39,482 bases of DNA. It comes from Aneurinibacillus terranovensis DSM 18919 (GTDB lineage Bacteria; Bacillota; Bacilli; Aneurinibacillales; Aneurinibacillaceae). Positions within the stretch are counted from its first letter, which is position 1. Each line of letters opens with the position of its first letter. Both the position numbers and the translations under genes were made by a program. The notes under the pieces were generated by a model. That model was given only the letters and a program-made list of their open reading frames with translations. It was not told where the DNA came from and did not search any database. The DNA lies in contig NZ_AUMJ01000056.1 in assembly GCF_000430625.1 (NCBI RefSeq), positions 1 to 39,482 on the forward strand, in the 5' to 3' direction. This document shows, piece after piece, positions 3,392 through 37,995 of this stretch.

Positions 3392-3925
3392 TTACTTCGT
3401 CCATTCCTTCCTCAGCGACAAGCGTGCCGAGGAAATTCTTGATTTTACCGTCCCAACCGGTATGTCCAAAATACGGGCGATCTCGTCATAAGAAAAGCCC
3501 TGGATGTCACGTAAAACAAGTACGGTTCGGTGGTCTAACGAAATATTTTGCATCGCTTCTTCGATCGTAAGCTGAAGCTGTTTCTGCTCCATCGTTCCCC
3601 TGGAAGAAGGAGTCGGAATATATTCTTCGAGATTATCGGCCAGCAGGCTTGCTTCCTTCTTCTTTTTCTGAACACGCGTATAACAGAGATTAGAAACAAT
3701 TCTTGTTAGCCACGAAGAAAAGGCAAATTCACTCTCTAAGGATTTTAAGGAAAAATAGACTTTTACAAAGGCCTCCTGCGCCACATCTTCTGCCTCCATT
3801 CGATCCTGTAACATGGCATAGGCGTGTCGAAACACCTGCCCTTTGTACCGTTGGATGAGTTGTGTGAACGCTTCTTTATCTCCCCGCTTCGCTTTGCGTA
3901 TCATTTCATAAAGTTCCTGCTCCAC
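3392..3925 (-). CDS. RNA polymerase ECF-type sigma factor
   Basis: The 177-residue protein has the two-domain ECF layout. Region 2 lies at about 20-90, with ALAYAMLQDRMEAEDVAQEAF-like helices (here HAYAMLQDRMEAEDVAQEAF). Region 4 lies at about 118-173, with the helix-turn-helix FSYDEIARILDIPVGTVKSR. It would direct RNA polymerase to a small stress regulon and probably its own operon, together with the anti-sigma and bactofilin-like genes downstream. The start is a GTG at 3925, preceded by GGGGTGAG. No convincing ECF promoter with the usual AAC-N16-CG spacing was found upstream, though AAC and CG elements 13 bp apart are present. Which ECF subgroup it belongs to cannot be settled by eye. Confidence 0.93.
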   Translation of the reverse strand: MEQELYEMIRKAKRGDKEAFTQLIQRYKGQVFRHAYAMLQDRMEAEDVAQEAFVKVYFSLKSLESEFAFSSWLTRIVSNLCYTRVQKKKKEASLLADNLEEYIPTPSSRGTMEQKQLQLTIEEAMQNISLDHRTVLVLRDIQGFSYDEIARILDIPVGTVKSRISSARLSLRKEWTK

Positions 3926-4170
3926 ACATTCTCACCCCATTCGATACAACCCTTCCGTTACATTTATTCATTTGCTAAGAACACTGTTGTATTCATGGCT
4001 AATTTGGATTTGGACGATTTACATAAAAAGACTGCAGCATTTCTCTAAAAGTTCGATTTGCAGGCAGAAAAATCTCAAGAGAATCAACCTTGTAAAAAAC
4101 GAATTCTTTATAAACAACTATACTACCGGTAATGTTTTTTTCCAAACGCTCCCCCGGTTATGCGTTCATC
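3926..4170. other. Intergenic region upstream of the ECF sigma gene
   Basis: No gene is seen in this stretch. It contains the presumed ECF promoter region next to 3925 on the minus strand; the rest is AT-rich and featureless to the eye. The sigK terminator and an 11-bp tandem repeat follow to the right. Confidence 0.5.
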
Positions 4171-4200
4171 AACAAAAGCGCCGTAGACAGAACCGGCGCT
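4171..4200 (-). terminator. Intrinsic terminator of sigK
   Basis: A 7-bp stem AGCGCCG/CGGCGCT (4177-4183 with 4194-4200) is followed on the minus strand by TTTTGTT. It lies about 85 bp behind the sigK stop codon, past the tandem repeat. Confidence 0.8.
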
Positions 4201-4249
4201 CTTGCTTTTGTCTTGCTTTTGTCTTGCTTTTGTCTTGCTCTTGCTTTTG
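4201..4249. repeat. 11-bp direct tandem repeat
   Basis: The unit CTTGCTTTTGT occurs three times head to tail (4201-4211, 4212-4222, 4223-4233). A degenerate copy CTTGCTCTTGCTTTTG follows. It lies in the sigK 3' untranslated region between the stop codon and the terminator. Confidence 0.9.
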
Positions 4250-4285
4250 ATTTCTGCATAGTAAAACAAGTGAGGTCAAAACTTA

Positions 4286-4648
4286 TCAGGTAACCCGCTG
4301 CCCCTGACGGTAAAATTCATGTAGCAATTTCATAAGTGCCCGTTTCTCGATTCGCGATACATACGAACGGGAGATGCCAAGCTCTTTCGCGATTTCCCGC
4401 TGAGTCCGCTCTTCTTCATTATCCAGCCCGAAGCGGCCGATAATCACTTCCTTCTCCCGCTTATCAAGAACATGAATGTGTTTATAAATCTTCGTTTTCT
4501 CCAGTTTTAATTGGACTTGATCCTCTACTTCATTCGCTTCCGTTCCCAATATATCCAGCAGACTGATTTCGTTTCCCTCTTTATCCGTACCAATCGGATC
4601 GTGTAACGAAACATCTTTTTTCGTCTTTTTTAGAGAACGAAGATGCAT
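4286..4648 (-). CDS. spoIIIC: RNA polymerase sigma-K, C-terminal half (SpoIIIC-type), split by a prophage
   Basis: The 120 residues match the C-terminal half of the mother-cell sporulation factor sigma-K. They begin [20 protein letters not shown], continue through [13 protein letters not shown], and end in the region 4 helix-turn-helix [20 protein letters not shown] (83-102). The reading frame stays open upstream as EIL (4649-4657), which also fits SigK. Upstream of that it leaves the family sequence, because the prophage junction lies there. Without regions 1-2 the fragment cannot act as a sigma factor; a complete sigK would form only after excision joins it to the N-terminal half, which lies outside the window. 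The ATG at 4648 is nominal and there is no proper RBS. Confidence 0.93.
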
Positions 4649-4680
4649 TAAGATCTCGATTCTAAAGTCAATAGAGGTGC
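4649..4680 (-). other. Prophage attachment junction within sigK (att half-site)
   Basis: Reading on the minus strand, the sequence is prophage-like up to about 4661 and becomes sigK-like from GAGATCTTAATGCAT (4657-4643). The equivalent of the B. subtilis skin core AATGA lies in the Glu-Asn-Glu codons of SigK, and here the corresponding bases read ATCGAG. The crossover is therefore placed at about 4655-4661, some 20-25 bp from the recombinase stop codon. The exact dinucleotide cannot be fixed without the other junction. Confidence 0.75.
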
Positions 4681-6189
4681 TTAATACGTAAAAATCTCGA
4701 TATGGTCTTCGTATACAATGATCTCTCGCACTAGCTGACGAATAAGCTGCTGTTTATCTTCAAATGTTAATTCATCCGAATTCTTAGATAGATAATATTC
4801 AGCCGCCTCAGTCAACAACCCGTGATTGAATTGAGCCTCTTTCGCATCTTTCATTCTAGCCTTCAGTTCATCCAATTGTTTCGTTGCGATTTCTTCCTTT
4901 TCTTTTAAAGATCGCATGGTTTCCCGAACCTCTTCTTCGCCAATCTCCATACCAGAAGCAAAGAGAGAAAGAATTTTTTTCCGGCCTTCCTTCGCCTTCT
5001 CAATTTCCTTTTCTAAACGTTCAAGTTCAATCTGTTCATAAGGAATTTCTTCCCTGACATTTTCCGCCTCAGCTGCCGCAGCGATCTCGTTCGGCTGCTC
5101 TAACCAGGAGCGAATCGTTTCCCACACCTCAGCCTCGATATTCTGGGCTTTGACTTTCCGACCGCATCCCTTTTGTTTAGCTCCAGCTGTATTTTTCATG
5201 TCTGTATATTCAAACTCGTATTTTCCCCAGTTTTTCGATCGACGCCCTGTCATTGTATTCCCACAATCCGAACAACGAAGCAATCCACTCAACAGATATT
5301 GATGAACCCCTTTCTTCGTCCACCTTCTTCGGGAATCTTGCAACAGCTTCTGCGCGTATTCAAATTTTTCACGTTCGATAATTGGTGGGCATTCTATCAG
5401 TATCCATTCCTCGCGCGGACGTTCCTTCATTGATACTCGTTCATCCGGGCTTTTATGTTTATTTCCAAGCATCCCTTCCGTGTTCCAGCGATTCTGATAG
5501 AACTCTCCGATATAAGCGGTGTTCATCAGTATCTGTCTTACCACTTGGCGATGCCACACGCTCGCTCCCCGTTTGGTTGGGATTCCTTTATCCGTAAGAT
5601 GGATAGCAATACCGTTAATCCCTTTTACCATACTATTCGGTTTTGTAAAAAGGTCAAAGATCAATCGTACGACAGCTGCCTCCTCCTCATTTACTATGAT
5701 TTGTGCTGTTTCCTTATCGTATCCATATCCATAAATTTTAAAGTCTCGCAACACACGCCCCTGTCTTGCTTTTTCGCGTCGGCCACGTGTCATCCGTTCG
5801 TTAATTTTGGCTTTTTCAAATTCTGCGATGGCACCACGCATACTATAGAAAAGTTGACCTTCCGGTGTGCGGGCGTACTCACCATTCACGAACACAAGTT
5901 CCACGCCACGTTTATCAAATTCATCGGTGACAAGCAGCTGGTTCATCAGTTTCCTTGATAGTCGGTCCGGATCCAGACAGACGATTTTAGTAATGAGACC
6001 GTCTCGAACATCCTGGCGTAAGCGCGACAAAGCCGGACGATCTAAAAACTCACCCGAAATTCCTTCATCTATATATTCCTTGCACTCAGTCGTTCCAGCC
6101 TTCTTCCGACACTCCCTGATTTGATCCTTCAGACCGAATCCGTGTTTGGCCTGTTCCTCTGTGCTTACCCGCGCATAAATTCCGACCAC
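4681..6189 (-). CDS. spoIVCA: Large serine recombinase (SpoIVCA-type) for sigK element excision
   Basis: This 502-residue site-specific recombinase has an N-terminal resolvase domain with catalytic Ser-9 (YARVSTEEQ) and an arginine motif [10 protein letters not shown] recombinase DNA-binding domain follows (about 150-260), then a zinc ribbon (C306-x2-C309 ... C342) and a long charged coiled coil (about 380-465), all typical of phage serine integrases. The start is the GTG at 6189 with RBS CAGGAGGG 9 nt upstream; the open frame extends to 6294, but that extension is not resolvase-like. It ends about 25 bp from the sigK junction and reads in the same direction as sigK. Its expected role is excision of the element in the mother cell, and integration for the phage. 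Timing control is not visible. Confidence 0.93.
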
Positions 6190-6277
6190 GAAGCTTTTCC
6201 CTCCTGTATTTCTCTTTGAGATAAATATAGCAGTCAAGCATTCGCTTGTCAGTAGAATTGCCCCTGATAAATTTGAC

Positions 6278-6320
6278 ATGCATCTGCGTTTCACCTCGCT
6301 AATGGAAGGTATGCAGATGC
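6278..6320. repeat. Inverted repeat upstream of the recombinase
   Basis: GCATCTGC (6280-6287) and GCAGATGC (6313-6320) form an 8-bp inverted repeat centred about 110 bp upstream of the recombinase start. It could be an operator or a recombinase-related site; the function is unknown. Confidence 0.5.
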
Positions 6321-6360
6321 CGCTTGGACTAATGCATAATTAGCACGTGCTCATCGATTT

Positions 6361-6627
6361 TTATGACATGAAGATGAAGGGATAAAATATCCCGTCATCC
6401 GTTGTAAGCATAACTTCCAACACTTCTATCGCACTCGGCTTCGTCGGGTCGCGCCGGCCGAATAAGACCCTTCTTCTCCAACCGATTGAGGTGCCCGTGT
6501 ACCGTTGAACTGGACGACAGGCCGATCGCCTTACCAATCTCTCGGATCGCGGGAGGATAACCCTTGCCCTTGACCTCTTGTTTGATGTATTCCAGAATAG
6601 CAAGCCGTCTGCTAAAAGTTTCTTCAT
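6361..6627 (-). pseudogene. LexA-like DNA-binding domain gene, frameshifted twice
   Basis: The DNA encodes an almost perfect LexA N-terminal winged helix, but in two frames. An ATG at 6627 with RBS GAGGGG gives MKKL. The frame then needs a -1 shift at the CTTTTAGC run to read [34 protein letters not shown] and [18 protein letters not shown] +1 shift near CGGCCGGCGCG returns it to [13 protein letters not shown] and a stop at 6361. There is no peptidase domain, as in short phage LexA-like regulators. As written, the translated frame between the two shifts is nonsense, so the gene looks broken; paired sequencing errors are the alternative. Two SOS boxes sit in its promoter. Confidence 0.8.
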
Positions 6628-6647
6628 CCCATTACCCCTCAAAATAG

Positions 6648-6689
6648 GAACAAACATTCTTGTTTTAAATTATACAGGAACATTAGTTC
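6648..6689 (-). promoter_or_regulatory. SOS-box promoter of the lexA-like gene
   Basis: A perfect Bacillus LexA box GAAC-ATTA-GTTC (6678-6689) and a one-mismatch box GAAC-AAAC-ATTC (6648-6659) lie 30 bp apart, about three helical turns. They flank a minus-strand -10 TATAAT (6669-6674). The layout fits LexA or self repression of the frameshifted gene downstream. The -35 is poor. Confidence 0.75.
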
Positions 6690-6828
6690 TTATTATATTC
6701 TGCACGCTCTTTTCTCCCCTTCTCTTGCATAAAATAACCTCCTCCAAGCAATATATCTCCGGAACTGAGGAACCCAGTAACTCATTTCCTGTGGTACAGA
6801 TATACGATGGAACGGAAGAAGTTATGCA

Positions 6829-6866
6829 AAAAGAAAAGCCTGGATAATAGATATCTAGGCTTTTCT
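6829..6866 (-). terminator. Terminator of the two-gene cassette
   Basis: A 10-bp perfect stem AGAAAAGCCT/AGGCTTTTCT (6832-6841 with 6857-6866) is followed on the minus strand by TTTT. It lies 10 bp behind the stop codon of the TIM-barrel-like gene. Confidence 0.85.
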
Positions 6867-6875
6867 ATAAACAAA

Positions 6876-8057
6876 CTATATTATTGCTGCGTCAATTGCA
6901 TCGCGCCATCTGATGAGATGTGCCGGTCGAATTTGTATATCTTGATCATAAATTTGTCTAGCTATTGCTATTGCTGCATCCAGTCTTCCCTTTAAAAGCT
7001 CTAGTCTTTGTTCATCATTCATTCCCTTTAGAGCTTCTAATTCTTCATAACGTTTTTCTAAAAAATAATATCTCGCTCTATCATTCCAACTATAAGCAAC
7101 TTGGTGATAAAATGTAGAGTTTTGATGACTGGTTAAACCATTTATATTTTGATTACTATATATAAGCTGAGCTCGATCCTGCGGGAATTTCATAGATACT
7201 TCTGGTATATAAATAAATCTTTCACGCCTGGAATCCTCATCTCTGCCTTCGAGTTCAAGGGTAAAGTTTTGTTCATTAAAGGATTCTAACCAGCAAATTC
7301 CTGCGCTAAATCCCGATGAACCAAATGCACTTGCAAAAATGCCCATTCCATCTATAAATCCGTTAATAACAGGTTTTCTAAACTCGGACAACTCTTTAGT
7401 AAACGCTAAGAATGCCGCCAACTCTGGAGCACCACTTATTCTATCTGCTAGTCCTTCTGCTAAAATATAATAACCATCAACATTAAGGCCACGATAGTCT
7501 TGTATAATCTTTTGTCGACTCGATTCGTTTGTAAGCTCAGCGATGCTAATACAAATTGTAGCGTAGATAGGTTCCTCGAATCCCATTTCTTCTTTAATTT
7601 CAATTGATTTTTGTGCAAGCTGTAAATTAACATCATACCATGGAGAGTTTACTGTTTTAGCTACGAAGTAAGGGGAGAGCAAGATATTTGCTTCTAATTC
7701 TACCTGAGTACTTAAAACGTTTGTAACGAATTCCTCTACAAAGCCCCCTGCATGTTCATGTGTAAAATCATCAGGGATTAAAGGATCTATCTCAGGGCAA
7801 TAATTAAGCTTCTTATATGTAGCTTTTTCAATACATAGTCTGTGTTCTAACTTAGCGGTATTCGGATCAACCATCAGAAATTTTATACCGCCAGCATTCC
7901 GTTTTTCCTTAACCTTCCCCCACACCTTGTAAAAATTCGTTGCTAAATTCGCGTCCATTATTACACCGTCAAATTCCGGATAGTTATTTATATACTTGAA
8001 CTCATTATTTAACATTCTGGCAATAAAGACCGGTCGCTCAAACCCTGGCAAGTTCAT
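6876..8057 (-). CDS. TIM-barrel-like protein of unknown function, second gene of the cassette
   Basis: I do not recognise this 393-residue protein with confidence. The alternation of short hydrophobic strands ending in acidic or polar residues suggests a TIM barrel: FDGVIMDA, IKFLMVDP, PIYATICISI, VDGYYILAEG, KPVINGFIDGMG and SAGICWLESF. It resembles TGT-like or glycosidase-like barrels, but no CxCxxC zinc site is present. The C-terminal 80 residues are helical. There is no signal peptide or membrane segment. It overlaps the upstream nuclease gene by 20 bp and shares its promoter and terminator, so the two are probably co-translated and functionally linked. The DNA is visibly more AT-rich than the tail genes, suggesting separate acquisition. 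Confidence 0.7.
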   Translation of the reverse strand: MNLPGFERPVFIARMLNNEFKYINNYPEFDGVIMDANLATNFYKVWGKVKEKRNAGGIKFLMVDPNTAKLEHRLCIEKATYKKLNYCPEIDPLIPDDFTHEHAGGFVEEFVTNVLSTQVELEANILLSPYFVAKTVNSPWYDVNLQLAQKSIEIKEEMGFEEPIYATICISIAELTNESSRQKIIQDYRGLNVDGYYILAEGLADRISGAPELAAFLAFTKELSEFRKPVINGFIDGMGIFASAFGSSGFSAGICWLESFNEQNFTLELEGRDEDSRRERFIYIPEVSMKFPQDRAQLIYSNQNINGLTSHQNSTFYHQVAYSWNDRARYYFLEKRYEELEALKGMNDEQRLELLKGRLDAAIAIARQIYDQDIQIRPAHLIRWRDAIDAAII

Positions 8058-8757
8058 TTATATTTTCCCCTTCCCCTATAAACATCTCAATATTAGGGCG
8101 CATTCTTCTCCATATAGCCTCATGTGCGAGAAATTTTATATTTTCGTTTAATGGTTTACGATATCTTGACTTCCAAATAATTTTAGCGGAATCTGTTTTC
8201 ATATCTACAGTTATAAGACCAATATTATTTCTCTTTAAACGTTCACATTCGACACGATGCCCATATTCTTTAAGTAAAGCGACATACGTTCGATTTGCAT
8301 AACTTTGATAACGTTTAGCTTGTTGAGTAGCCGCGATCCATGCTTCTTTTTTTGCTTCTACAGCGATGACTTCGGATGCTAAAGGAACAATGTTGTTAAT
8401 CTTACGATAAGTATTACCTTCCGTCTCAACAATGAAATGACCTTCAATTAATTTATTAATAAGATTTCTTTTTAAGTAGGGCGTAGAGTAAGAAAAGCGC
8501 TTCTTAATTTTTTTAAGCTGTGTTCCTTTGTTATCCTCAGTAATAAAACGAAGCAATTCCGCAAGAACCTCATTTTTAATACTGTCGTATTGATTATTTC
8601 TAATCCGTTGGATAACTTTGTCTAGATTTATTTTTACTGCAACAACGTCCGCAACACCGTGTCCAGCTCCACCTACAGATACTTCTGTAAAGGTAAAGTA
8701 GCCCATGTCACTGAAGTATTTTTCGATTATAGGAATCATATCGGCTTCCTGGACCAT
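8038..8757 (-). CDS. Predicted PD-(D/E)XK nuclease-like protein with internal winged helix, first gene of the cassette
   Basis: The 239-residue protein has the elements of a restriction-endonuclease fold: GVADVVAV with D37, then EVIAVEAKK with the E134-x-K136 pair, then a helix WIAATQQAKRYQSYA and strand TYVALL. Between the two halves (about 55-120) lies an insert resembling a winged helix, with QLKKIKKRF and YLKRNLINKLIEGHFIVE. The family is not recognised by name. The start is the ATG at 8757, because GGGAGGGGTG lies directly upstream and a promoter lies at 8778-8805; the frame opens earlier at 8841, but that would place the promoter inside the gene. Expected substrate is DNA, by fold only. 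It is the first gene of a two-gene operon. Confidence 0.7.
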   Translation of the reverse strand: MVQEADMIPIIEKYFSDMGYFTFTEVSVGGAGHGVADVVAVKINLDKVIQRIRNNQYDSIKNEVLAELLRFITEDNKGTQLKKIKKRFSYSTPYLKRNLINKLIEGHFIVETEGNTYRKINNIVPLASEVIAVEAKKEAWIAATQQAKRYQSYANRTYVALLKEYGHRVECERLKRNNIGLITVDMKTDSAKIIWKSRYRKPLNENIKFLAHEAIWRRMRPNIEMFIGEGENINELARV

Positions 8758-8777
8758 TTCACACCCCTCCCGACAAC

Positions 8778-8805
8778 ATAATAAACGAGCACTCATGGTT
8801 GTCAA
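8778..8805 (-). promoter_or_regulatory. Strong SigA-type promoter of the nuclease/TIM-barrel cassette
   Basis: On the minus strand a perfect -35 TTGACA (8800-8805), a 16-bp spacer and -10 TATTAT (8778-8783) lie about 20 bp before the start codon. It implies expression independent of the phage late operon, including in the lysogen. Confidence 0.75.
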
Positions 8806-8850
8806 TAGTTTAATTCTCCGCTGGGAAAATAATACCTTCATGTTAAAAAC

Positions 8851-8880
8851 AAAAAACCCACCAACCTAGCGCCGATGGGC
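8851..8880 (-). terminator. Terminator after the 42-residue membrane peptide gene
   Basis: Stem CCCATC/GGTGGG (8874-8879 with 8857-8862) is followed on the minus strand by TTTTTTG. It separates the small upstream gene from the nuclease cassette. Confidence 0.75.
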
Positions 8881-8899
8881 TTTTGCAGAAAAAATATCT

Positions 8900-9028
8900 T
8901 CAAAAACTAATTGAAAACAGTAAAACTAACAGCGTAATAATTAGTGGAATAAGGAATGCTCGTAACTCAACAACTTCATTTCCGATAACTATACAAACCA
9001 AAATACCAAAAGCAACAATTTCATCCAT
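8900..9028 (-). CDS. Small hydrophobic membrane peptide (42 aa)
   Basis: An ATG at 9028 with AGAGGAT upstream opens a 42-codon frame. Two hydrophobic stretches, VAFGILVCIVIG and AFLIPLIITLLVLLFSIS, are separated by the short charged segment NEVVELR. It lies between the terminator of the LLH holin gene and its own terminator, so it is a separate transcript or a read-through product. Position next to the lysis module suggests a lysis accessory or inhibitor, but a toxin peptide is equally possible. No homology is recognised. Confidence 0.6.
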   Translation of the reverse strand: MDEIVAFGILVCIVIGNEVVELRAFLIPLIITLLVLLFSISF

Positions 9029-9091
9029 AATCGATTCTATCCTCTTTTCATATATTTTTTGTTGTTTCTATTCTCTTTTGATCTGTACGAC

Positions 9092-9129
9092 AAAAAAAGA
9101 CCGCCACCCGATAAAGGGCAGCGGTCTTT
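9092..9129 (-). terminator. Terminator of the late/lysis operon
   Basis: A 9-bp stem AAAGACCGC/GCGGTCTTT (9096-9104 with 9121-9129) is followed by TTTT on the minus strand. It closes the long late transcript right behind the LLH-type holin gene. Confidence 0.9.
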
Positions 9130-9135
9130 CATCAT

Positions 9136-9684
9136 TTAAGGCGTTGGAACTGAAGGAATTGACTGTGATTGCGCAGTTTCTTGGGCCGGGGCAGTGGTGT
9201 CCGTAGTCGGGGCTGCCGGCACGTATGCGGTTGGAGCGACATCTGTAACTGCCGTCTGAACCACCGGCGTGCCCACCAACTGATTCACCTGGTCTTTCCC
9301 GCGCAGCACATATTTCTCCACCATTTGTGCCACAATACCTTCAATTGGGCCCAACAACTGTGCCGCTTCATCTTTGAGTGGCCCGAGGTTTTTCAGTACG
9401 TCCTCGATAACCGCCTGCTTGATAGCTTCGGCTGTTTCCGGAGTGAAAAGATTGTGCTGTTTCAAACCAATGACCACCCGGCTATTTGCATCCTGAACAG
9501 CCGTTTCCGTCAAGCGTTCAATGGTGTCGATGATAGGATTCACCTTTGCTGCGATGCTCGGCGTCGTGTGTTTGGAAACAGCATCCTCAAGTTTTTTAGC
9601 CGCGCTACGCAAAAGTACGCCGCCGATTCCGAGAATTAGTGCAGCCAGAATGGTTTGAGTGAGTGAGTAGATTTGATCGTACAT
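9136..9684 (-). CDS. Phage holin, LLH family
   Basis: This 182-residue protein has one N-terminal membrane segment (about 9-27, QTILAALILGIGGVLL), a helical domain (about 30-125) and a low-complexity Ala/Pro/Thr/Gln tail (about 140-182). That layout matches the LLH-type (superfamily 6) phage holins, which sit in the membrane and help release the endolysin. The RBS is GGGGGA before the ATG at 9684. It is the last gene of the late operon, 2 bp after the endolysin-like gene, and is followed by a strong terminator. With a second, multi-span holin just upstream, the prophage carries two holin-type proteins. Confidence 0.8.
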   Translation of the reverse strand: MYDQIYSLTQTILAALILGIGGVLLRSAAKKLEDAVSKHTTPSIAAKVNPIIDTIERLTETAVQDANSRVVIGLKQHNLFTPETAEAIKQAVIEDVLKNLGPLKDEAAQLLGPIEGIVAQMVEKYVLRGKDQVNQLVGTPVVQTAVTDVAPTAYVPAAPTTDTTAPAQETAQSQSIPSVPTP

Positions 9685-11565: not shown

Positions 11566-12189
11566 CTACGGGGTTGTTGGTGCTGTCGTTTGCAGGTTCG
11601 AAAAGTCAATGGCGATCGATTCAACCTTTTCCGGCGAATCCGTTGTATCAGCTTTAATTTGTTCCTCAATACTCCTGAAACGAGCAAGATACGCCAACTC
11701 CATATCACGAAGGTCAGACGCAAGCTGCTTGAATTGCATCTCATCAAGATTGACAATACTTCCATCTGCCGCTCGCCACGGCACTGGCCACTTGGCGATA
11801 CCGTTCGCGTTCATGAGTAATTGCTTTTGCATCTCTGCCCAAGCTTCCTGTGTCGCAGAGTACAGGATAGGAGTACCCGATGCGGAAGAGGTAAATGGCA
11901 TAGCGAGAGCTGTGTAATAAGCGTTGGTTAGCTCGGTGAGTTTCGCGTCTTTTTCGCGTTGTAAGAGGACAGTGTCCGCATCAGGTTTGCGTGTCAGCAT
12001 CCCGTTTGACACTACGTACAGGTCTGCGTTAGCAAACGCATCCTTTACTGCAGCATCTGCATCATCCTCTGAAAATGGCCCGAGGACAGCGCATCCATCG
12101 GGAATGTTTGTCCATTCTTCGGCTGAACCAAGATAAGGTGCGCCGTAGATTTCCCCTGTTGATTTTGTATATAAAAACCAATAATTCAT
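11566..12189 (-). CDS. Tail-fibre-associated protein (DUF4376/XkdW-like)
   Basis: This 207-residue protein starts MNYWFLYTKSTGEIYGAPYL. It ends with a helical domain (about 85-185) containing REKDAKLTELTNAYYTALA, typical of small proteins that follow tail-fibre genes in Gram-positive prophages. The C-terminus is a short Thr/Pro tail. It is 15 bp behind the tail fibre gene, with RBS AAAGGAGGG. Likely a tail-fibre assembly or tip protein; the exact role is inferred from position. Confidence 0.7.
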   Translation of the reverse strand: MNYWFLYTKSTGEIYGAPYLGSAEEWTNIPDGCAVLGPFSEDDADAAVKDAFANADLYVVSNGMLTRKPDADTVLLQREKDAKLTELTNAYYTALAMPFTSSASGTPILYSATQEAWAEMQKQLLMNANGIAKWPVPWRAADGSIVNLDEMQFKQLASDLRDMELAYLARFRSIEEQIKADTTDSPEKVESIAIDFSNLQTTAPTTP

Positions 12190-19769: not shown

Positions 19770-22700
19770 TTACACCCCCGGGATCAGGCTGATAGGCCTT
19801 GTTAGGCTGTTTCGTTTGTCTTTTCGATTAAGTTTCTGTTCAACCATATTCGCCACCCGTTGAGCCAGCGCATTTGCATCCTCGCCTGGTTGTTGGTAGA
19901 TGTGGAAATGCATATCTCCATGAACCGTCGTTCCCCCAGCGGCCGCACCCACCATCGGATGATTAACAGCTATTCCTGGCCTTACCTGCATACTGTTGGC
20001 CGCCATATTCGATGCGTTACGCAAAACAGGTATTTTTCCAATCATCCCTTTTGCGATTGCACTCACAAGGTTTGAACCCCAAATAGATTGGTCTATGGCA
20101 AGCGGTCCTTCTTTTGTCGGTGATTGTACGCCTAGGTTTGCATGAGCGGCTGCGGCCACCTGTTGAGCAGCTGTACGGACAGCATCCGCTTTAGCGGCCA
20201 ATCCTCGCGCAAAGCTTGAACCGAGATTCGAGCCAAAGTTCTCCATAACTTGTGGTTGCGGCAAAACAGACATGATGATATTTTTAAATCCTGAAATTGC
20301 GGCGACTACTTGCGATGCCGCAGAACTTATCCCGTGAGCGAAATTGATTCCTGCATTTTTCCCAGCAGCCAGCATAAACGTTTGGAGTTCAATGACTTGC
20401 TTTCTGGCAGGCGCTTGGTCAAGTGTCGAAGGAATAGTCAAAGGCTTTATTTGTTCCGTATTGAAAGCTTGTGGTTGCTTTGTCAACTGGTCCATATTCA
20501 AATTCGCAGGCACCTGAATCGGTGGCACGTTTTTCCCCGAAGCCATCTGCTGCAATTGCTGAGAGATTTGATTTTGATTAAGTTGTGCATCTACTTTCAC
20601 AGCCGGTTGTTTTCCCATTGGATTTTCATTCGTTTTTGGAAGAATTACATTAGCCATTAATGTAGGCATTTGCACTTTTTGTGGTAGTGTTTGAGCCTGC
20701 GTTTGCAATTGAGTCATATCAATTCCTGCCGGTATCTGAACAGGCGGCATGCCCATTGCTTGAGAACCAAGCTTGGTAATATCCGACATGAAACTACTTG
20801 TATCGGCTTTAACAGGAACGTCCACCTGTTTTTTATCATCCGCAATGCCAAAGAAATCTTTTACTGCTTGTTTTGCTTTGTCCCAGTATTTTGCGATAGT
20901 AAGCGGAATACCGACAATAGGCATAAATATATTAAGAACAAGAAGTGCCCATCCATTAATGTTTTGCGCGAAGTTTTTCAGCGATGTCCACCAGTCGTTC
21001 CATTTGTAAATCACCAGTGCAACAACTCCGATAAGAGCCACAACAAGCATAATAACCGCGCCTATTGGATTAGCATCCAGCGCCACATTTAAGAGCCATT
21101 GAGCGCCTGTCCAAGCAAGCACTCCAAGTCGTATCGTCCACATTAGGGGTGCCAAAATAGCAGCCGCCGCGTATTGTAGCCACGTGGCTGATGTAGCGGT
21201 ACCGGTTGCAATCGCATATATGGTTTGTGCTGCGGTGACGGCTAACATAACGCTTCGGTACGCTCCCATGATAAATGCTGTGGTACCAGTGATTATATTC
21301 AATGCGATTGTACGAAGGATATTTAGAGAAGTGGCTGCAGCTAATTGAATCATTTGAGCAGCGGCTACAATAATTGCAGGTGTGTAGGCAACTGTAAAAA
21401 TAACTGCTAAACCCTTTACTACCCATCCATATTCGTCCCAAAGATTTTTCACAGTGTCCCAATTTTTATATATGAGATACGCTAGGCCGGCTAGTGCAAG
21501 TCCAACGCCGATATATGTGAATGTTGTGGCCATGACCCCGGTAACTGTAAGTCCGGCTACCTCCATAGCCAAGGATAATGCCCCGAAAGCTGCTGAAGTT
21601 ACCAATACAATTCCGGTTAAAAGCATAAATCCAGAAATTACAGCGCCGCTTATTATTAGTCTTTTCGTTAAATCAGGATGAGAATCAAGGTAATCGGATA
21701 ACGAAGAAAATTTATCAGCAAAAGCAGTAAGAACTTGTGTTGCTACATCTAATAATGGCGTTCCAAATGATGTCTTTACACTATCCCACGCCTCTTGCAT
21801 ACGCTGTAGTGAAGCAGAATATGTTGCATTGGCCTCTGCGGCACGTTCTGTAATAGTTAGCGAGTTTTTCATTAATTCTTTAATTTCTGCCATACTACCT
21901 GTACCGCCACTTTCAATTGCTCCAAAAAACCGACCACCCTGATCTCCTAACCAAGTATTTAAAAAATCTTGTTTTTGGAGTGCACCCATACCTTTTATCG
22001 AACCATCAATTGTATTAATAATCTGCTGCATAGGAAGAAGATGTCCGGTTTTATCTTTAAAATCGTTTACAGAAAGACCTACAGATTCCATTTGTTTTAG
22101 ACCTGGACCAGTAGGAGATACTAATCGGTTTAAAAAAGCGTCCATCCCTGTGCCAGCTGTACTTTGGTCAATACCCCTAGTATTCGCTGAGGCAAGGGCT
22201 AAAATTACATCGTCATAACTTAATCCTAACCTCTTGGCCGTTCCGCCCGCATATTTAAATCCTATCGATATATCCTGAGCGGTCGCGGCTGAAGCACCAT
22301 CAGCCATAACAATTTTGTTTGCTAAGTCTTTTGTTCTGCTCCCATCAAGTTGGTACGAGGCTACAATTTTAGATAGTTGTTCTGCAGTGTCTAGAGGAGT
22401 TTGTTGAGTGATTTGAGCCATATATAACGCAGATTCTCCAACGCCATCTAGTATATTCTTTAGTGATATACCATTTTTCTGTAGAGTATCAAAGGTTTGG
22501 ATGGCATCTGTTCTTCCGAAAATAGTTTTTGCACCAAGGTCCTTTGCCAAGCCATCAACTTGTTTTTTAATAAAGTCTAATGCATCTGTTTTTGTGTTAA
22601 ATTTGATATCCACACCTTTAGTTTTAGCGATTTCTTGCGCCTGTCCTATAACGTTTTTTACAGATTCGATATTTGCGTTGGGTTTAATGGCTTGGCCAAA

Positions 22701-22973
22701 AGCGTTAACTTCAAAAGATTTCATTGAATCCTGCAATTTTGAAGCTGATTCAAGCGAAGAATCAATTGCTTTTGTAAGTGTTGTAAATCCTGCTACGCCA
22801 GCTGCGATAAATCCAGCTCCTGTCCATGCTAAAGTTTCAAAACTTTTCATTCTGGTAAGGACATCGTCAGTTGCGTTTTCAAGCAAATGAAAATGACCAA
22901 TTATACTTTGGACACCTGATGTAACTTGATCGGATAACGTAATTGCGATAGCTAAATCGAGAATTGAACTCAT
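19770..22973 (-). CDS. Tail tape measure protein
   Basis: At 1067 residues it is the longest product in the window and has the expected tape-measure build. An N-terminal TP901-type domain (about 60-420) contains TAGTGMDAFLNRLVSP and QWLGDQGG-like motifs (NTWLGDQGGRFFG). A cluster of hydrophobic segments (about 440-660) follows, then a disordered Gln/Pro-rich stretch (about 720-850) and a helical C-terminus. It sets tail length and may help cross the membrane during DNA entry. By family rule about 1.5 angstrom of tail per residue gives near 160 nm. The gene is separated from its usual neighbour, the tail chaperone, by the cargo island. Confidence 0.95.
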   Translation of the reverse strand: MSSILDLAIAITLSDQVTSGVQSIIGHFHLLENATDDVLTRMKSFETLAWTGAGFIAAGVAGFTTLTKAIDSSLESASKLQDSMKSFEVNAFGQAIKPNANIESVKNVIGQAQEIAKTKGVDIKFNTKTDALDFIKKQVDGLAKDLGAKTIFGRTDAIQTFDTLQKNGISLKNILDGVGESALYMAQITQQTPLDTAEQLSKIVASYQLDGSRTKDLANKIVMADGASAATAQDISIGFKYAGGTAKRLGLSYDDVILALASANTRGIDQSTAGTGMDAFLNRLVSPTGPGLKQMESVGLSVNDFKDKTGHLLPMQQIINTIDGSIKGMGALQKQDFLNTWLGDQGGRFFGAIESGGTGSMAEIKELMKNSLTITERAAEANATYSASLQRMQEAWDSVKTSFGTPLLDVATQVLTAFADKFSSLSDYLDSHPDLTKRLIISGAVISGFMLLTGIVLVTSAAFGALSLAMEVAGLTVTGVMATTFTYIGVGLALAGLAYLIYKNWDTVKNLWDEYGWVVKGLAVIFTVAYTPAIIVAAAQMIQLAAATSLNILRTIALNIITGTTAFIMGAYRSVMLAVTAAQTIYAIATGTATSATWLQYAAAAILAPLMWTIRLGVLAWTGAQWLLNVALDANPIGAVIMLVVALIGVVALVIYKWNDWWTSLKNFAQNINGWALLVLNIFMPIVGIPLTIAKYWDKAKQAVKDFFGIADDKKQVDVPVKADTSSFMSDITKLGSQAMGMPPVQIPAGIDMTQLQTQAQTLPQKVQMPTLMANVILPKTNENPMGKQPAVKVDAQLNQNQISQQLQQMASGKNVPPIQVPANLNMDQLTKQPQAFNTEQIKPLTIPSTLDQAPARKQVIELQTFMLAAGKNAGINFAHGISSAASQVVAAISGFKNIIMSVLPQPQVMENFGSNLGSSFARGLAAKADAVRTAAQQVAAAAHANLGVQSPTKEGPLAIDQSIWGSNLVSAIAKGMIGKIPVLRNASNMAANSMQVRPGIAVNHPMVGAAAGGTTVHGDMHFHIYQQPGEDANALAQRVANMVEQKLNRKDKRNSLTRPISLIPGV

Positions 22974-22989
22974 AGATTCACCACCTCGT

Positions 22990-23025
22990 GCAGCAAAATA
23001 AAAACACCCTTGTCAAGGGTGTGCT
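22990..23025 (-). terminator. Terminator behind the MORN lipoprotein gene
   Basis: Stem ACACCCTT/AAGGGTGT with a short loop is followed by TTTTATTTT on the minus strand. It lies between the MORN lipoprotein stop (23048) and the tape measure start (22973), so transcription of the tape measure must read through it or start nearby. Confidence 0.75.
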
Positions 23026-23047
23026 GTGTAATAATACTTTTCTTGAT

Positions 23048-23761
23048 TTACTGTAAACCAAATTGAGTTTTATTTAGTAACTTGTTGTTTTGAAATGTAA
23101 AATTAGCATTAGCCCCAAGAGTTCCTTCTCCATTATACATATAGATAACGGTATAATAAGGATCGTTTACCGAACCTGTTTCGGAAAGTTTCTGCCCTTC
23201 TCCGCCAATAATTTTTTTAACTTGTTCATACGTCATACCATTTTTTATGGTATCAAATTCGCTTTTCGTAATTGAAACAATGGAATTTGTTTGTGACTGT
23301 TCGTTAGTTTGTTGGTTAAGAAGTACAGGCATTCCATTTTGAACTTCGTATTCGTTCACTAATTGTCCATTTTGGTCGTAAATTTTACCTCTACCGTACA
23401 TACTCCCATCCTTGAATTCGCCTTCAAATACAACACCGGAGTTTTGATTATAAGCCTTTCCATGTCCGTCTGGTTTTTCGTTTTTAAATTCGCCTTCGTA
23501 CAATAACTTTCCGTTTTGGTACGATTTACCGTTAATTATCTTTCCATTTTCAAACAACCCCTCATACGAGATATCACCATTTGGCAATACTACTTTCCCG
23601 TACCCTTGTGGGATGTTATTTTGAACTTGACCAACGTACTTAGCCCCATTACCGTTTTGCACAGGTAATTCTTTTACTGTATTTCCTGTAGCAGGTTGGT
23701 TATCATTGGATGGCGCGCAACCAGCTAGTACAATAAAAATCAATAACATAATTTTTTTCAT
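23048..23761 (-). CDS. MORN-repeat lipoprotein with C-terminal BamE/DUF3862-like domain
   Basis: The 237-residue protein has a lipoprotein signal (lipobox VLAGC, Cys-15). Several MORN repeats follow (about 40-140), with the YxGxxxNxxxxGxGxxxxxNG pattern, for example YVGQVQNNIPQGYGKVVLPN and YEGEFKNEKPDGHGKAY. Its C-terminal domain (about 165-237; FDTIKNGMTYEQVKKIIGGE and a YMYNG strand) matches the small SmpA/BamE-like fold of DUF3862. It would be exported, lipidated by Lgt, and held on the outer membrane face. Such a fusion is cargo, not virion structure. RBS AAAGGAGGGGG. A superinfection-exclusion or surface-fitness role is only inference. Confidence 0.85.
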   Translation of the reverse strand: MKKIMLLIFIVLAGCAPSNDNQPATGNTVKELPVQNGNGAKYVGQVQNNIPQGYGKVVLPNGDISYEGLFENGKIINGKSYQNGKLLYEGEFKNEKPDGHGKAYNQNSGVVFEGEFKDGSMYGRGKIYDQNGQLVNEYEVQNGMPVLLNQQTNEQSQTNSIVSITKSEFDTIKNGMTYEQVKKIIGGEGQKLSETGSVNDPYYTVIYMYNGEGTLGANANFTFQNNKLLNKTQFGLQ

Positions 23762-23843
23762 ATGTCCCCCTCCTTTCTACATCTTACACCACCTCTTTTA
23801 TTGTGTAGTAAATTTCCATTCGACAAACTTTGACAAACAAAAC

Positions 23844-23862
23844 ACCCTCTTGAAAGGGTGCT
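23844..23862 (-). terminator. Minus-strand hairpin terminator upstream of the toxin gene
   Basis: CACCCT/AGGGTG hairpin (about 23844-23860) is followed on the minus strand by TTTTGTTT. It could end a minus-strand RNA coming from the toxin-antitoxin region and insulate the MORN lipoprotein gene. Confidence 0.6.
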
Positions 23863-23891
23863 GGTATGTTATAATCTTCCTGTACAATAGA
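23858..23891 (+). promoter_or_regulatory. Toxin promoter with motif shared with the antitoxin promoter
   Basis: GTGCTGGTA (23858-23866), then 14 bp, then TGTACAATAGA (23881-23891), containing an extended -10 TG-TACAAT. The same two blocks recur inverted at 24108-24140. A TATAAT at 23870-23875 is an alternative -10. The -35 is not canonical, so an activator or a phage-specific factor is possible. Confidence 0.6.
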
Positions 23892-23944
23892 TACGGCTCC
23901 TCAAGGGTGGTCGGCTCACTCCCGTTGAAAGGGGGTGACGCCTT

Positions 23945-24028
23945 ATGACAGTATTCGAAGCAACTTATTTGATGATTGCATTTGCAACATTAATCGTAGC
24001 TATACTGTCATTTACACAAAAGAAATAG
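23945..24028 (+). CDS. Type I holin-like toxin peptide (27 aa)
   Basis: A 27-residue ORF, MTVFEATYLMIAFATLIVAI plus LSFTQKK, is preceded by a strong SD GAAAGGGGGTGA 6-8 nt upstream. The short N-terminal MTVFEA, one hydrophobic helix and a QKK end match the 'putative holin-like toxin' family related to BsrG, BsrE and TxpA. Those peptides insert into or disrupt the membrane when their antisense RNA is lost. It is transcribed opposite to the surrounding tail genes and has its own terminator. In B. subtilis the skin element also carries txpA/ratA. It is too short for normal gene calling. Confidence 0.85.
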   Translation: MTVFEATYLMIAFATLIVAILSFTQKK

Positions 24029-24104
24029 ACCTCCCTTGAGCCTGGAAAGTTGAAGGGTAGGTCTATTTTCTGTGAAATACAACTATGAGCCGTCCCTCTT
24101 GGGA
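24018..24104 (-). ncRNA. Predicted antisense antitoxin RNA of the type I module
   Basis: A minus-strand promoter at 24111-24140 (TACAAT -10 and the GTGCTGGTA block) would start an RNA near 24104. It is complementary to the 3' part of the toxin mRNA. An 11-bp hairpin (24027-24037 with 24053-24064, one bulge) followed by ATTTCTTTTG on the minus strand could end it near 24018; read-through would go to 23844. Ends are approximate. Confidence 0.55.
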
Positions 24105-24107
24105 ACG

Positions 24108-24140
24108 TCTATTGTACATGACCGTAAGTGTTACCAGCAC
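24108..24140 (-). promoter_or_regulatory. Antitoxin RNA promoter, mirrored copy of the toxin promoter motif
   Basis: On the minus strand GTGCTGGTA (24132-24140), 13 bp, then TGTACAATAGA (24108-24118), the same two blocks as in front of the toxin. This gives convergent promoters about 220 bp apart. Confidence 0.6.
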
Positions 24141-24155
24141 TTGCGGTCTTTTTTT
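24120..24155 (+). terminator. Terminator of the toxin mRNA
   Basis: An 11-bp stem GACCGTAAGTG/CACTTGCGGTC (24120-24130 with 24138-24148, one G-T pair) is followed by TTTTTTT. It overlaps the antitoxin promoter on the other strand. Confidence 0.88.
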
Positions 24156-24169
24156 ATCTTACTCATTTG

Positions 24170-24189
24170 ATACGGTATATATACCGTAT
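24170..24189. promoter_or_regulatory. 20-bp perfect palindrome, possible operator
   Basis: ATACGGTATATATACCGTAT is a perfect 10+10 palindrome without spacer. It lies just behind the toxin terminator and upstream of the antitoxin promoter. A perfect palindrome of this length is typical of a dimeric repressor operator; no cognate regulator is seen nearby. Confidence 0.6.
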
Positions 24190-24298
24190 TTGCAATACAT
24201 TATACCACAAATTCTTCATCAATTATTTTTACATTTATATTTTTTCTTTTAATAAAAAGCAAAAATAAATGATAGCCTTGTACAATTGCTTTTTTGGA

Positions 24299-24318
24299 GG
24301 GCTTAATTTTAAAAGCCC
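24299..24318. repeat. Hairpin behind the secreted stalk-domain gene
   Basis: GGGCTT/AAGCCC with an AT-rich centre (24299-24304 with 24313-24318). It lies about 30 bp behind the stop codon at 24350 but has no T-tract in the minus direction, so terminator function is uncertain. The stretch 24190-24298 is AT-rich without a gene. Confidence 0.45.
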
Positions 24319-24349
24319 AACTCAAAATGAGAAAGGCATTTTTAATTGA

Positions 24350-24922
24350 CTACGGAACAAAATTTCCCGGTATATCCACATTCGAATAATCTACAGTTTG
24401 AACATCCGACTGATCTTGTGGCTGTTCCTCTGATTGGTTTTGTGCATCTTCTTCTACGGCTTGTTCATCAGCATCTGGCGGATAAATGACTAGTGTGTTA
24501 TCACCATCCATATTAACTCCGCAATCTACGGAAGCACCAAGTTGTGTTGCTTCTATGTAGAAAGATCCGTTTACCAACACAGACGGTGTAACTCCAGGAT
24601 ACTGGATGCCGTTTTTTATTACGCTGTCATCATTTCGCGAGAAAATAGCCGAAATTCCGTTCCCTGTTACGCTCATCATCTGTGAAGGCGAATCCCATTT
24701 TGCATCGTACCCAAGTGCATTAAAAACCTCCCTGGCAGGAAGCAAAAGAAATTCATTATATTTAACTGGTTTGTGTTTCAATACGATTTCTTCACCGTTG
24801 TACATCACCTTAATATCAACTGGCTGATAAGGAGAATTTACAGTCAGTTGTTTAGCAAAAACAATACTGCTACTTAATGAAAATACTATCATGCAAAGAA
24901 TTAACGATATAAATTTTTTCAT
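24350..24922 (-). CDS. Secreted copper amine oxidase N-terminal-like (stalk) domain protein
   Basis: The 190-residue product has a Sec signal peptide (1-23, cleavage after VFA). A domain of the copper-amine-oxidase-N/stalk type follows (about 35-150), with VMYNGEEIVL, FLLLPAREVFNALGYDAKWD and VNGSFYIEATQLGASV. An acidic Glu/Gln/Asp tail (about 152-182) ends in DIPGNFVP. Such domains occur in Bacillales cell-surface proteins; none of the catalytic amine oxidase part is present. It belongs to the cargo island in the tail module. RBS GTAGGAGGGG. Function unknown. Confidence 0.8.
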   Translation of the reverse strand: MKKFISLILCMIVFSLSSSIVFAKQLTVNSPYQPVDIKVMYNGEEIVLKHKPVKYNEFLLLPAREVFNALGYDAKWDSPSQMMSVTGNGISAIFSRNDDSVIKNGIQYPGVTPSVLVNGSFYIEATQLGASVDCGVNMDGDNTLVIYPPDADEQAVEEDAQNQSEEQPQDQSDVQTVDYSNVDIPGNFVP

Positions 24923-25000
24923 AGATATCCCCTCCTACTCCTACTATACAGGAAAATTTATGAAAGAATTTATATTTTTTTGACAGAACACCTCCATTTT

Positions 25001-25923: not shown

Positions 25924-27438
25924 CTACACCTCCACATTCGTCCCGCCTCGGAAGTTGAGTAATGTCCACTCGGCGGTATTGTAATATTTCGCACTGACAT
26001 CATCGACGAACTGGTCAATTTGCGCAGCAGCATCATTAAACGAAATGGAATAGTCCTCTATGACGTTGTCGTTTTTGAGTCCATCCAAGTACGTCCGTAG
26101 TTTAATCTCAGCGTCACCCTTCATTTTCTTGGTCATCGCCTTACCCTGCCATGGGGCTGCCACACCGAACAATGCTTTTTCAATCCAAGAACTTAATCTT
26201 CGTTTATTCACTTTGCGGTTTTCATTGTCAGAGATCACATTGCCCTCCACATCTTTCACCGCAAGTGTATAGTCATTCGACATGCGATAAGCCATCGAAC
26301 CGTCACCTTTGGCGCTTGGTTTCAGTTCGAACGCTCCGATTTGGTTGTTATATAGCGTGGTTGCCATATCAAAATCCACTTCTGTTTCAGCCCCGGCAAT
26401 CCAACTGCACTCTACAGCAAGGCCACTGTCCTCAATATTTCCGATCGCGTGCACGATTGCTGCCACACAAGCCCCGGAAGCATATTGTCCTGTAGTTGAT
26501 TTGTACCGACCGAAGTTCATATGCATGAAGTCCGTATCAAATAATTGCCGATAGGTTGCAGCTGCATCCACCATTTTTGCGGTACTTGTACCGCAGTAGG
26601 TCATGATGTTGTGCTTCTCGCCATATTGACGGAGAGCATCGTCCGCTGTTTGGCCACTAAAATCAATGTAGGATACATCTGTAAGGATAGAAGCAGGAGA
26701 ACCTTCGAATAGTTTCAGGCCTGTGCGTGCACCTGATCCCGGGTCAGACGTGCCAATGTAGTCGGTCGCTGTAACAGGAGCTCCATCTGAGCCACCTGCA
26801 AGCTGTGTCTGGGCAAGAACCGCCGGGCGTGCATCATCAAACGAAGAAGCGTTCGACTTAAGATCCTCCACAACAAAATGAGCGCTGGCATTGTTTACAA
26901 TCGTAACAACATAGCGCTCATTCGTAGGATCCATACTTAAATTGTCGTATGTTTCTTTACCGCCGATGTCAGAGATTAGTATCAGTTTAAAAGTGCCGGT
27001 ATTTGTTCCTTCCTGAACCTCTGATGTGAAGATGTTGGCGTATTTGCCCGGACCGGCTTTTGGTTTAATTTTCAGCGTGTCAGCCGGGGTTGCCTGGCGG
27101 TCTTTCAATGTCAGGCTTGCTGTAGCGAAACCACTCCCAATCACCCGGCCAAAAATCACATTTTTCACACGAGCATGATCTAAATGGTCAAGCAGTTGGT
27201 TTCCTTTTGGACTGAATGTTTTCAAACCAAATATAATTTCAGCAGCCTCCGCCACTGTCATGGTAGGGGTTTCTACGATATGCACATATTGATCAACAGG
27301 CCCTCGGTCAAACTCCCCGATGAAGCCAAGAACAAACGGAGACGCTAGCACTGCAGCACCCTGCGGCGCAGCCAATTCATTCACATAGACATTCGGTGGC
27401 AAACCGTTAAGGTTTTTGAGTCCTCGTACTACTGGCAT
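25924..27438 (-). CDS. Tail sheath protein (XkdK-like)
   Basis: From the ATG at 27438 (RBS AAGGAGG, 7 nt) the protein is 504 residues. The open frame to 27528 overlaps the preceding gene and is not used. The N-terminus MPVVRGLKNLNGLPPNVYVN with FVLGFIGEFDRGPV, the middle ASGACVAAIVHAIGNIEDSG and the C-terminal INKRRLSSWIEKALFGV-like part (here KVNKRRLSSWIEKALFGV) fit the sheath family. It forms the contractile outer tail layer, so the phage is a myovirus. Confidence 0.93.
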   Translation of the reverse strand: MPVVRGLKNLNGLPPNVYVNELAAPQGAAVLASPFVLGFIGEFDRGPVDQYVHIVETPTMTVAEAAEIIFGLKTFSPKGNQLLDHLDHARVKNVIFGRVIGSGFATASLTLKDRQATPADTLKIKPKAGPGKYANIFTSEVQEGTNTGTFKLILISDIGGKETYDNLSMDPTNERYVVTIVNNASAHFVVEDLKSNASSFDDARPAVLAQTQLAGGSDGAPVTATDYIGTSDPGSGARTGLKLFEGSPASILTDVSYIDFSGQTADDALRQYGEKHNIMTYCGTSTAKMVDAAATYRQLFDTDFMHMNFGRYKSTTGQYASGACVAAIVHAIGNIEDSGLAVECSWIAGAETEVDFDMATTLYNNQIGAFELKPSAKGDGSMAYRMSNDYTLAVKDVEGNVISDNENRKVNKRRLSSWIEKALFGVAAPWQGKAMTKKMKGDAEIKLRTYLDGLKNDNVIEDYSISFNDAAAQIDQFVDDVSAKYYNTAEWTLLNFRGGTNVEV

Positions 27439-37632: not shown

Positions 37633-37995
37633 ATGTCGGAGACTACTTTTTATAATAAACGCGGTGAGCCTATAGCTTACACTCAAGACGGCGAACATAT
37701 TTACTTGTTTAATGGTAAGCCTGTAGCGTATCTATACCAAAACTCCGTTTATACTTATTCCGGTAAACATTTGGGTGTCTATGAAAATGGATGGATACGC
37801 GATAATAATGGGCAATGTGTTTTCTTTACAAGTGAAGCTACAGGTGGACCAATGAAGCCCATGAAACAAATGAAACCTATGAAAAATCTTAAACAACTTA
37901 AACCCTTAAAATCATTAAAGCAAATCAAACCCGCTCGCGCGATGAATTCATCTCAATGGTCTGAGCTATCATCTGGAATCTTCTTTGATGTATAA
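37633..37995 (+). CDS. 4-fold beta-flower protein with Lys/Pro-rich repeat tail
   Basis: The 120-residue protein starts with the repeated pattern of the 4-fold beta-flower family: YNKRGEPIAYTQDGEHIYL, FNGKPVAYLYQNSVYTYSGK, GVYENGWIRDNNGQCVFF (1-65). A repetitive stretch of MKPMK, QLKPLK and QIKP units follows (about 73-101), very basic and likely nucleic-acid or surface binding, and an ordered end SELSSGIFFDV. It has a strong RBS GGAGGTGAAAA and reads opposite to the late operon, so it is expressed separately, possibly in the lysogen. The cellular role of the family is unknown. Confidence 0.8.
   Translation: MSETTFYNKRGEPIAYTQDGEHIYLFNGKPVAYLYQNSVYTYSGKHLGVYENGWIRDNNGQCVFFTSEATGGPMKPMKQMKPMKNLKQLKPLKSLKQIKPARAMNSSQWSELSSGIFFDV

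Follow-up and report, generated by a model that had tools for sequence, protein, structure and literature searches.

Two overlapping genes lie between the lysis genes and the large serine recombinase of a prophage in Aneurinibacillus terranovensis DSM 18919. What proteins do they encode, do the two belong together, and are they carried for the phage itself or as cargo against other phages? We pursued these questions in a stretch of 39,482 nucleotides of this genome, called the window in the following, and at related loci in other genomes.

Organization of the cassette

The cassette and its putative expression signals comprise the following features:

6832..6866, minus strand: intrinsic terminator of the cassette, a 14-pair hairpin followed by CTTTTT (-17.2 kcal/mol)
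6876..8057, minus strand: gene 2, 393 aa, predicted tRNA-guanine transglycosylase (TGT) fold, a (beta-alpha)8 barrel (AlphaFold2 model and structure searches)
8038..8757, minus strand: gene 1, 239 aa, PD-(D/E)XK nuclease-like (conserved residues and AlphaFold2 model)
8764..8771, minus strand: putative ribosome-binding site GGGAGGGG, 6 nt 5' of ATG 8757 (from sequence)
8778..8805, minus strand: sigma-A-type promoter, TTGACA-16-TATTAT, 11/12 consensus match
8852..8884, minus strand: second terminator, 5' of the cassette, dividing it from the lysis side
9130-9095: lysis-side terminator

The sequence-only reading had described a two-gene operon with a 20-bp overlap that follows the lysis operon terminator, has its own promoter and terminator and is more AT-rich than its flanks. 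Both open reading frames were found at this place on the minus strand (6876-8057, 393 aa, and 8038-8841, 267 aa), with 20 bases in common. For gene 1 the most probable start is the internal ATG 8757 (239 aa), which is preceded by GGGAGGGG; the upstream in-frame ATG at 8841 is a less likely start. The residue numbers D37, E134 and K136 given in that reading correspond exactly to a count from ATG 8757. Of the promoter, which had been called perfect, the -35 element TTGACA is indeed so, but the promoter as a whole matches at 11 of 12 positions only. An equally good match arises by chance within 150 bp of composition-matched sequence with p ~0.003. The cassette's own terminator (hairpin at 6866-6832) was recovered, and so was the position behind the lysis operon, with terminators at 9130-9095 and 8884-8852. 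Between these two lies a short hydrophobic, membrane-peptide-like open reading frame of ~42 aa (8900-9028, minus strand).

The GC content of the cassette is 36.2% vs 45.1% in the remaining prophage, in agreement with the claimed AT-richness; 10 of 659 sliding windows had a GC content as low. The cassette is not the sole AT-rich stretch, since another GC dip occurs at ~22-25 kb of the window. This stretch (22000-25000, 36-39% GC) holds two open reading frames that are possibly other cargo, a lipoprotein-like one in which G-x-G-K-type motifs recur (23048-23761) and a secreted one (24350-24922). A small open reading frame at 37633-37995 is found on the plus strand, opposite to the structural genes, with short repeats inside and a tail rich in K, P and M.

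The prophage and its cargo slot

Next to the cassette the prophage borders on an interrupted sporulation gene of the spore-forming host:

4286..4648, minus strand: C-terminal part of sigK (SigK residues 113-231), interrupted by the prophage
4681..6294, minus strand: large serine recombinase of the prophage

The remaining SigK residues (2-71 and 64-119) are encoded on another contig, C47, at 26287-26454 and 31269-31478 (L045, L046, L087). These parts are split by a second element of ~4.8 kb with its own serine recombinase (C47:26432-28069), such that sigK is apparently in three parts. A relative of the prophage recombinase with 74% identity adjoins a sigK fragment in the IMG/VR contig L097. There, within 3839-9608, a middle sigK fragment (5448-5693) lies between two serine recombinases. 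This like layout shows that the double interruption of sigK is not unique. In one related, recombinase-bearing viral contig (L101, 6460-7616) the slot before the recombinase contains genes resembling a Panacea-type toxin-antitoxin pair. Altogether, the recombinase-bearing relatives L097, L099-L101 and L103 have other genes in this slot and no homologue of the cassette. That relatives hold other genes there is consistent with a cargo slot beside the recombinase, without proving it. Phage integration in sigK as such is already known (PMC13141910).

Gene 1 is a predicted PD-(D/E)XK nuclease with an inserted winged helix

Gene 1 had been credited with PD-(D/E)XK-like residues (D37, E134-x-K136) and an internal winged-helix-like insert, a proposal that a structure prediction without a nuclease core would have refuted. 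Counted from ATG 8757 these residues are right. D37, E134, K136 and Q146 are invariant when distant relatives are aligned, as is E25, and E25, D37, E134, K136, W140 and Q146 are conserved among relatives from Bacillota, Bacteroidota and a haloarchaeon. The AlphaFold2 model, built from five sequences (pLDDT 77), contains the nuclease core and has 3dnx as its best solved fold (Foldseek E 7e-5; VIA Z 15.3 over 135 residues, rmsd 4.4), followed in VIA by PaqCI (10.8) and XisH-type proteins (~10). Both criteria of the PD-(D/E)XK superfamily, a restriction-endonuclease-like core fold and an active-site D...ExK on the core strands, are thus met by gene 1 and its model. We conclude from the models that gene 1 has the predicted core fold of a PD-(D/E)XK nuclease; its nuclease activity is inferred.

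8380..8631, minus strand: winged-helix domain, residues 43-126 (helices in the model; many winged-helix chains align)

In the model this insert separates the D37 strand from the E-x-K strand. Many winged-helix proteins align to residues 43-126, which supports a winged helix inserted between the two active-site halves, as had been suspected. Gene 1 shares its core with MmcB-like, XisH-type and PaqCI nucleases but differs from them by the winged helix inside the core and by a dedicated TGT-like partner.

Family libraries contributed little: gene 1 belongs to no Pfam or PADLOC family and gave one sub-threshold score only in NCBIfam. Searching PHROGs with the cassette proteins yielded weak matches only, among which phrog_12193 for gene 1 pointed to phage relatives. 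Two nuclease-only relatives were identified by tblastn, gp1.5 of SPO1-like phages (L094, 3004-3690), in which the extra domain comes after the core, and ORF84 of the haloarchaeal phage PhiCh1 (L095, 2593-3357). These relatives, together with 3dnx, a member of the MmcB-like DNA-repair family, would fit a DNA repair or lysogeny function of the phage itself instead of defence. Most copies of the module described below, however, lie outside phages, and several are within restriction-modification (R-M) or Abi loci, such that we give this explanation little credence.

Gene 2 adopts a predicted TGT fold without the TGT nucleophile

For gene 2 a TIM-barrel-like protein of unrecognised family had been proposed. 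The barrel was retained, but the family proved recognisable as a TGT fold whose nucleophile is missing. A TGT was suspected before any fold search from a CxCxxC...H motif near the C-terminus of gene 2 relatives. In the AlphaFold2 model (pLDDT 64, pTM 0.72) eight barrel strands are present. Upon searching the PDB with Foldseek, the best 27 matches were all TGTs (7owz_C, E 1.5e-6), and with VIA all 50 matches listed were, led by the archaeosine TGT 1iq8 (Z 19.6, 295 residues, rmsd 3.9). The TGT fold is hence supported by a model of moderate confidence. Gene 2 has no family in Pfam, NCBIfam or PADLOC, with no Pfam match up to E 10 and hence none to PF01702. A profile comparison of the gene 2 family with bacterial TGT (hhalign) gave E 0.055-0.11, which is not significant. 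Since sequence profiles fail to join the two, the kinship rests on one model and on the CxCxxC...H motif of the relatives.

Bacterial TGT uses Asp102 and Asp280 as active residues, and in the eukaryotic enzyme QTRT2 is a non-catalytic subunit (PMC6165067). The corresponding positions in gene 2 are:

7866..7868, minus strand: codon of D64 (equivalent of TGT Asp102, end of strand 3; DP motif, register from model strand 3)
7296..7298, minus strand: codon of I254 (position of the TGT nucleophile Asp280; from alignment, end of model strand 8)
7062..7151, minus strand: zinc-motif region, CxCxxC...H in most relatives, ligands lost in the window copy

D64 is invariant in 14 of 14 aligned relatives. 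At the Asp280 position an Asp was found in none of the 14, which carry I, T, L, A, M, W, N, H or V instead; this register was set by model strands and shared motif anchors, not by superposed coordinates. CxCxxC is intact in eight of the 14 aligned relatives and incomplete or lost in the others. The window copy lacks the zinc site CxCxxC...H and, with these ligands gone, may be further diverged. As inferred from the alignment, the lack of an Asp at the Asp280 position and the loss of zinc ligands in the window copy make canonical base exchange by gene 2 unlikely. Compared to the TGT superfamily (bacterial TGT, arcTGT, QTRT1/QTRT2), the family shares the predicted (beta-alpha)8 barrel, the Asp102 equivalent and, in many relatives, CxCxxC...H, but it has no Asp280, no significant profile match to TGT or PF01702, a nuclease partner and frequent kinase fusions.

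These residues bear on whether the cassette could be an R-M system like Dpd, in which the TGT-like protein would swap guanine for 7-deazaguanine in DNA and the nuclease would cut unmodified DNA. TGT paralogues (DpdA) do so in Dpd and in phages (PMC6884629), R-M neighbours are common at the module loci (see below), and in both cases a TGT-fold protein stands in a putative restriction context. All 14 relatives lack the nucleophile, though, the zinc site is gone from the window copy as well, and the module consists of two or three genes only. Near the inspected copies we saw no gene for preQ0 synthesis, DpdB or DpdC: when reading translated open reading frames within ~8-10 kb, where that much sequence existed, no preQ0 pathway or DpdB/C/D-type genes appeared, but no profile search of all loci was made. 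A Dpd-like function is therefore very unlikely.

The pair recurs as a mobile module, usually with a kinase

We also asked whether the two genes occur together elsewhere, as homologues that are never adjacent would have refuted a joint function. The first gene 2 relative, from a distant member of the Bacillota (L004, 24% identity), had a gene 1 relative directly after it (E 7e-6). In 399 Bacilli genomes a nuclease profile gave 9 matches that extended beyond the winged helix with E below 1e-16; most matches covered the winged helix alone and were not counted. A TGT-like neighbour adjoined all nine full-length nucleases. Seven of these partners were found independently by a TGT-like profile and two by a neighbourhood HMM (E 1.9e-58 and 5.6e-13). 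Overall the pair is adjacent at 13 of 14 distinct loci, so that the refuting outcome did not occur. The exception is a Gordonia plasmid (L007, 5887-7095), where the TGT-like protein has no detectable nuclease neighbour.

The module is present in two Bacteroidota genomes (L020, L085), on a Priestia plasmid (L006), where the kinase described below is fused to the TGT-like domain and the gene 1 relative is convergent, and on a plasmid of the haloarchaeon Natribaculum breve (L093) in the order nuclease-kinase-TGT-like. A second prophage pair was found at L089 and also as an IMG/VR contig (L105). With the window proteins or the L089 TGT-like protein as queries, tblastn found no match in phages, and a sequence search of the cassette proteins against the PDB returned nothing useful. 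One further candidate (genome G1078, L086) was rejected, since the protein is unrelated and its weak match due to chance.

A Ser/Thr kinase accompanies the pair at 10 of 14 loci, fused to the TGT-like protein in six and as a separate gene in four. Its match was first taken as spurious, which was wrong: the kinase/TGT-like fusion is real. It is absent from the window, from the second prophage and from the vicinity of the Gordonia copy, and at L004 its status is undecidable because the contig end cuts the locus. No kinase motif turned up when the window and contig C47, likely the rest of the prophage, were scanned. Both kinase-less pairs (window; L089/L105) are prophage-borne. The module kinases score on the PADLOC profiles of the defence kinases PD-T4-6, Stk2 and MADS mad6, but the match is limited to the generic kinase domain. 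The cassette thus belongs to a conserved mobile module, of which it is the variant that lacks the kinase and resides in a prophage.

An overlapping gene pair under its own promoter that travels on plasmids and prophages could also be a toxin-antitoxin or addiction cassette that stabilises the prophage, with a toxic nuclease neutralised by the co-translated TGT-like protein. Against this stand the size of the partner, its invariant Asp and its fusions to kinases; moreover, such cassettes do not usually consist of three parts that recur across domains of life. We consider this quite unlikely.

Defence genes next to the module

Neighbours recognised by PADLOC occur at eight of the 14 loci, including one weak TIR match. 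In genome G1054 (L085) the module sits within a type I R-M operon, in the order hsdM, kinase-TGT-like, nuclease, PD-Lambda-3_A-like gene, hsdS, hsdR; this copy is the strongest single item of defence context. The PD-Lambda-3_A-like gene (11609-12100), between module and hsdS, is possibly a further piece of cargo. The other neighbours are an EcoRII-type restriction endonuclease with a C5 methylase (L080), a type III R-M system (L019), ThsB (L088), a type IIG R-M system (L007), AbiEi/AbiEii (L090), a type IIG-like enzyme (L093) and the weak TIR match (L089). A Mom-like DNA modification gene was seen at L089 (6346-6954), near the kinase-less pair of the second prophage. For the window proteins themselves PADLOC 2.0 defence models gave no family. 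As no background rate of defence neighbours was measured, the eight loci support but do not prove a defence role. Judged from gene context, the R-M, AbiE and ThsB neighbours strengthen the defence reading, which is still an inference.

The hsdM-hsdS type of slot is occupied elsewhere by prrC, and PrrC guards type I R-M systems. The copy between hsdM and hsdS thus invites a PrrC-like abortive mechanism, in which, once an infection has knocked out another defence, the nuclease would cut the tRNA that the TGT-like protein holds at its anticodon loop, or else the host genome. Binding to the anticodon stem-loop is known for TGTs (PMC6165067). DNA is, however, the usual substrate of PD-(D/E)XK enzymes, and the inserted winged helix suggests binding of double-stranded DNA, which leaves tRNA targeting unlikely.

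Discussion

Defence systems frequently use kinases and PD-(D/E)XK nucleases. The cassette is probably an undescribed immune module, where defence is inferred and no phage-resistance data exist. Our favoured reading, held with modest confidence, is an anti-phage module against other phages in which a TGT-like recognition or sensor subunit controls the nuclease. The pair would be carried as prophage cargo, and both proteins would join in one complex. The TGT-like protein may serve as a non-catalytic subunit that recognises or senses a nucleic-acid feature, comparable to a possible role of QTRT2 in the eukaryotic TGT dimer (PMC6165067). Its binding could release or direct the nuclease, which would cut invader DNA or, in an abortive response, host nucleic acid. 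Where present, the kinase may act as a phosphorylation trigger or brake; prophage copies may work without it or borrow a host kinase. Support for these inferred steps falls from anti-phage prophage cargo over one complex and the recognition or sensor subunit to the release or direction of the nuclease.

TGT homologues also occur in BREX-related capture (BRC) loci (PMC12839542), and both cases feature a TGT homologue within a defence-type operon. BRC loci contain PglZ, a BrxC-like ATPase, HerA and STAND components, however, all of which the cassette lacks. Within open-access PMC text we found no description of the nuclease/TGT-like/kinase trio; with the search limited in this way, an earlier description elsewhere is possible. 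The module can be regarded as a multi-gene, nuclease-based candidate immune module, and it could even be a system of an entirely new category. A bolder version, a new bacterial and archaeal immune system in which a dead transglycosylase-fold sensor licenses a winged-helix nuclease, usually under kinase control, and prophages use a kinase-free form against rival phages, remains tentative and rather doubtful.

If the favoured reading were true, it would bring to light a recurrent immune module that escapes present family libraries and ranges over two or more bacterial phyla as well as haloarchaea. The TGT fold, its nucleophile gone, would have been reused as a nuclease partner. One could then test whether this fold recognises tRNA, phage DNA or modified bases, and for what reason the kinase, but not the pair, is dispensed with in prophages.
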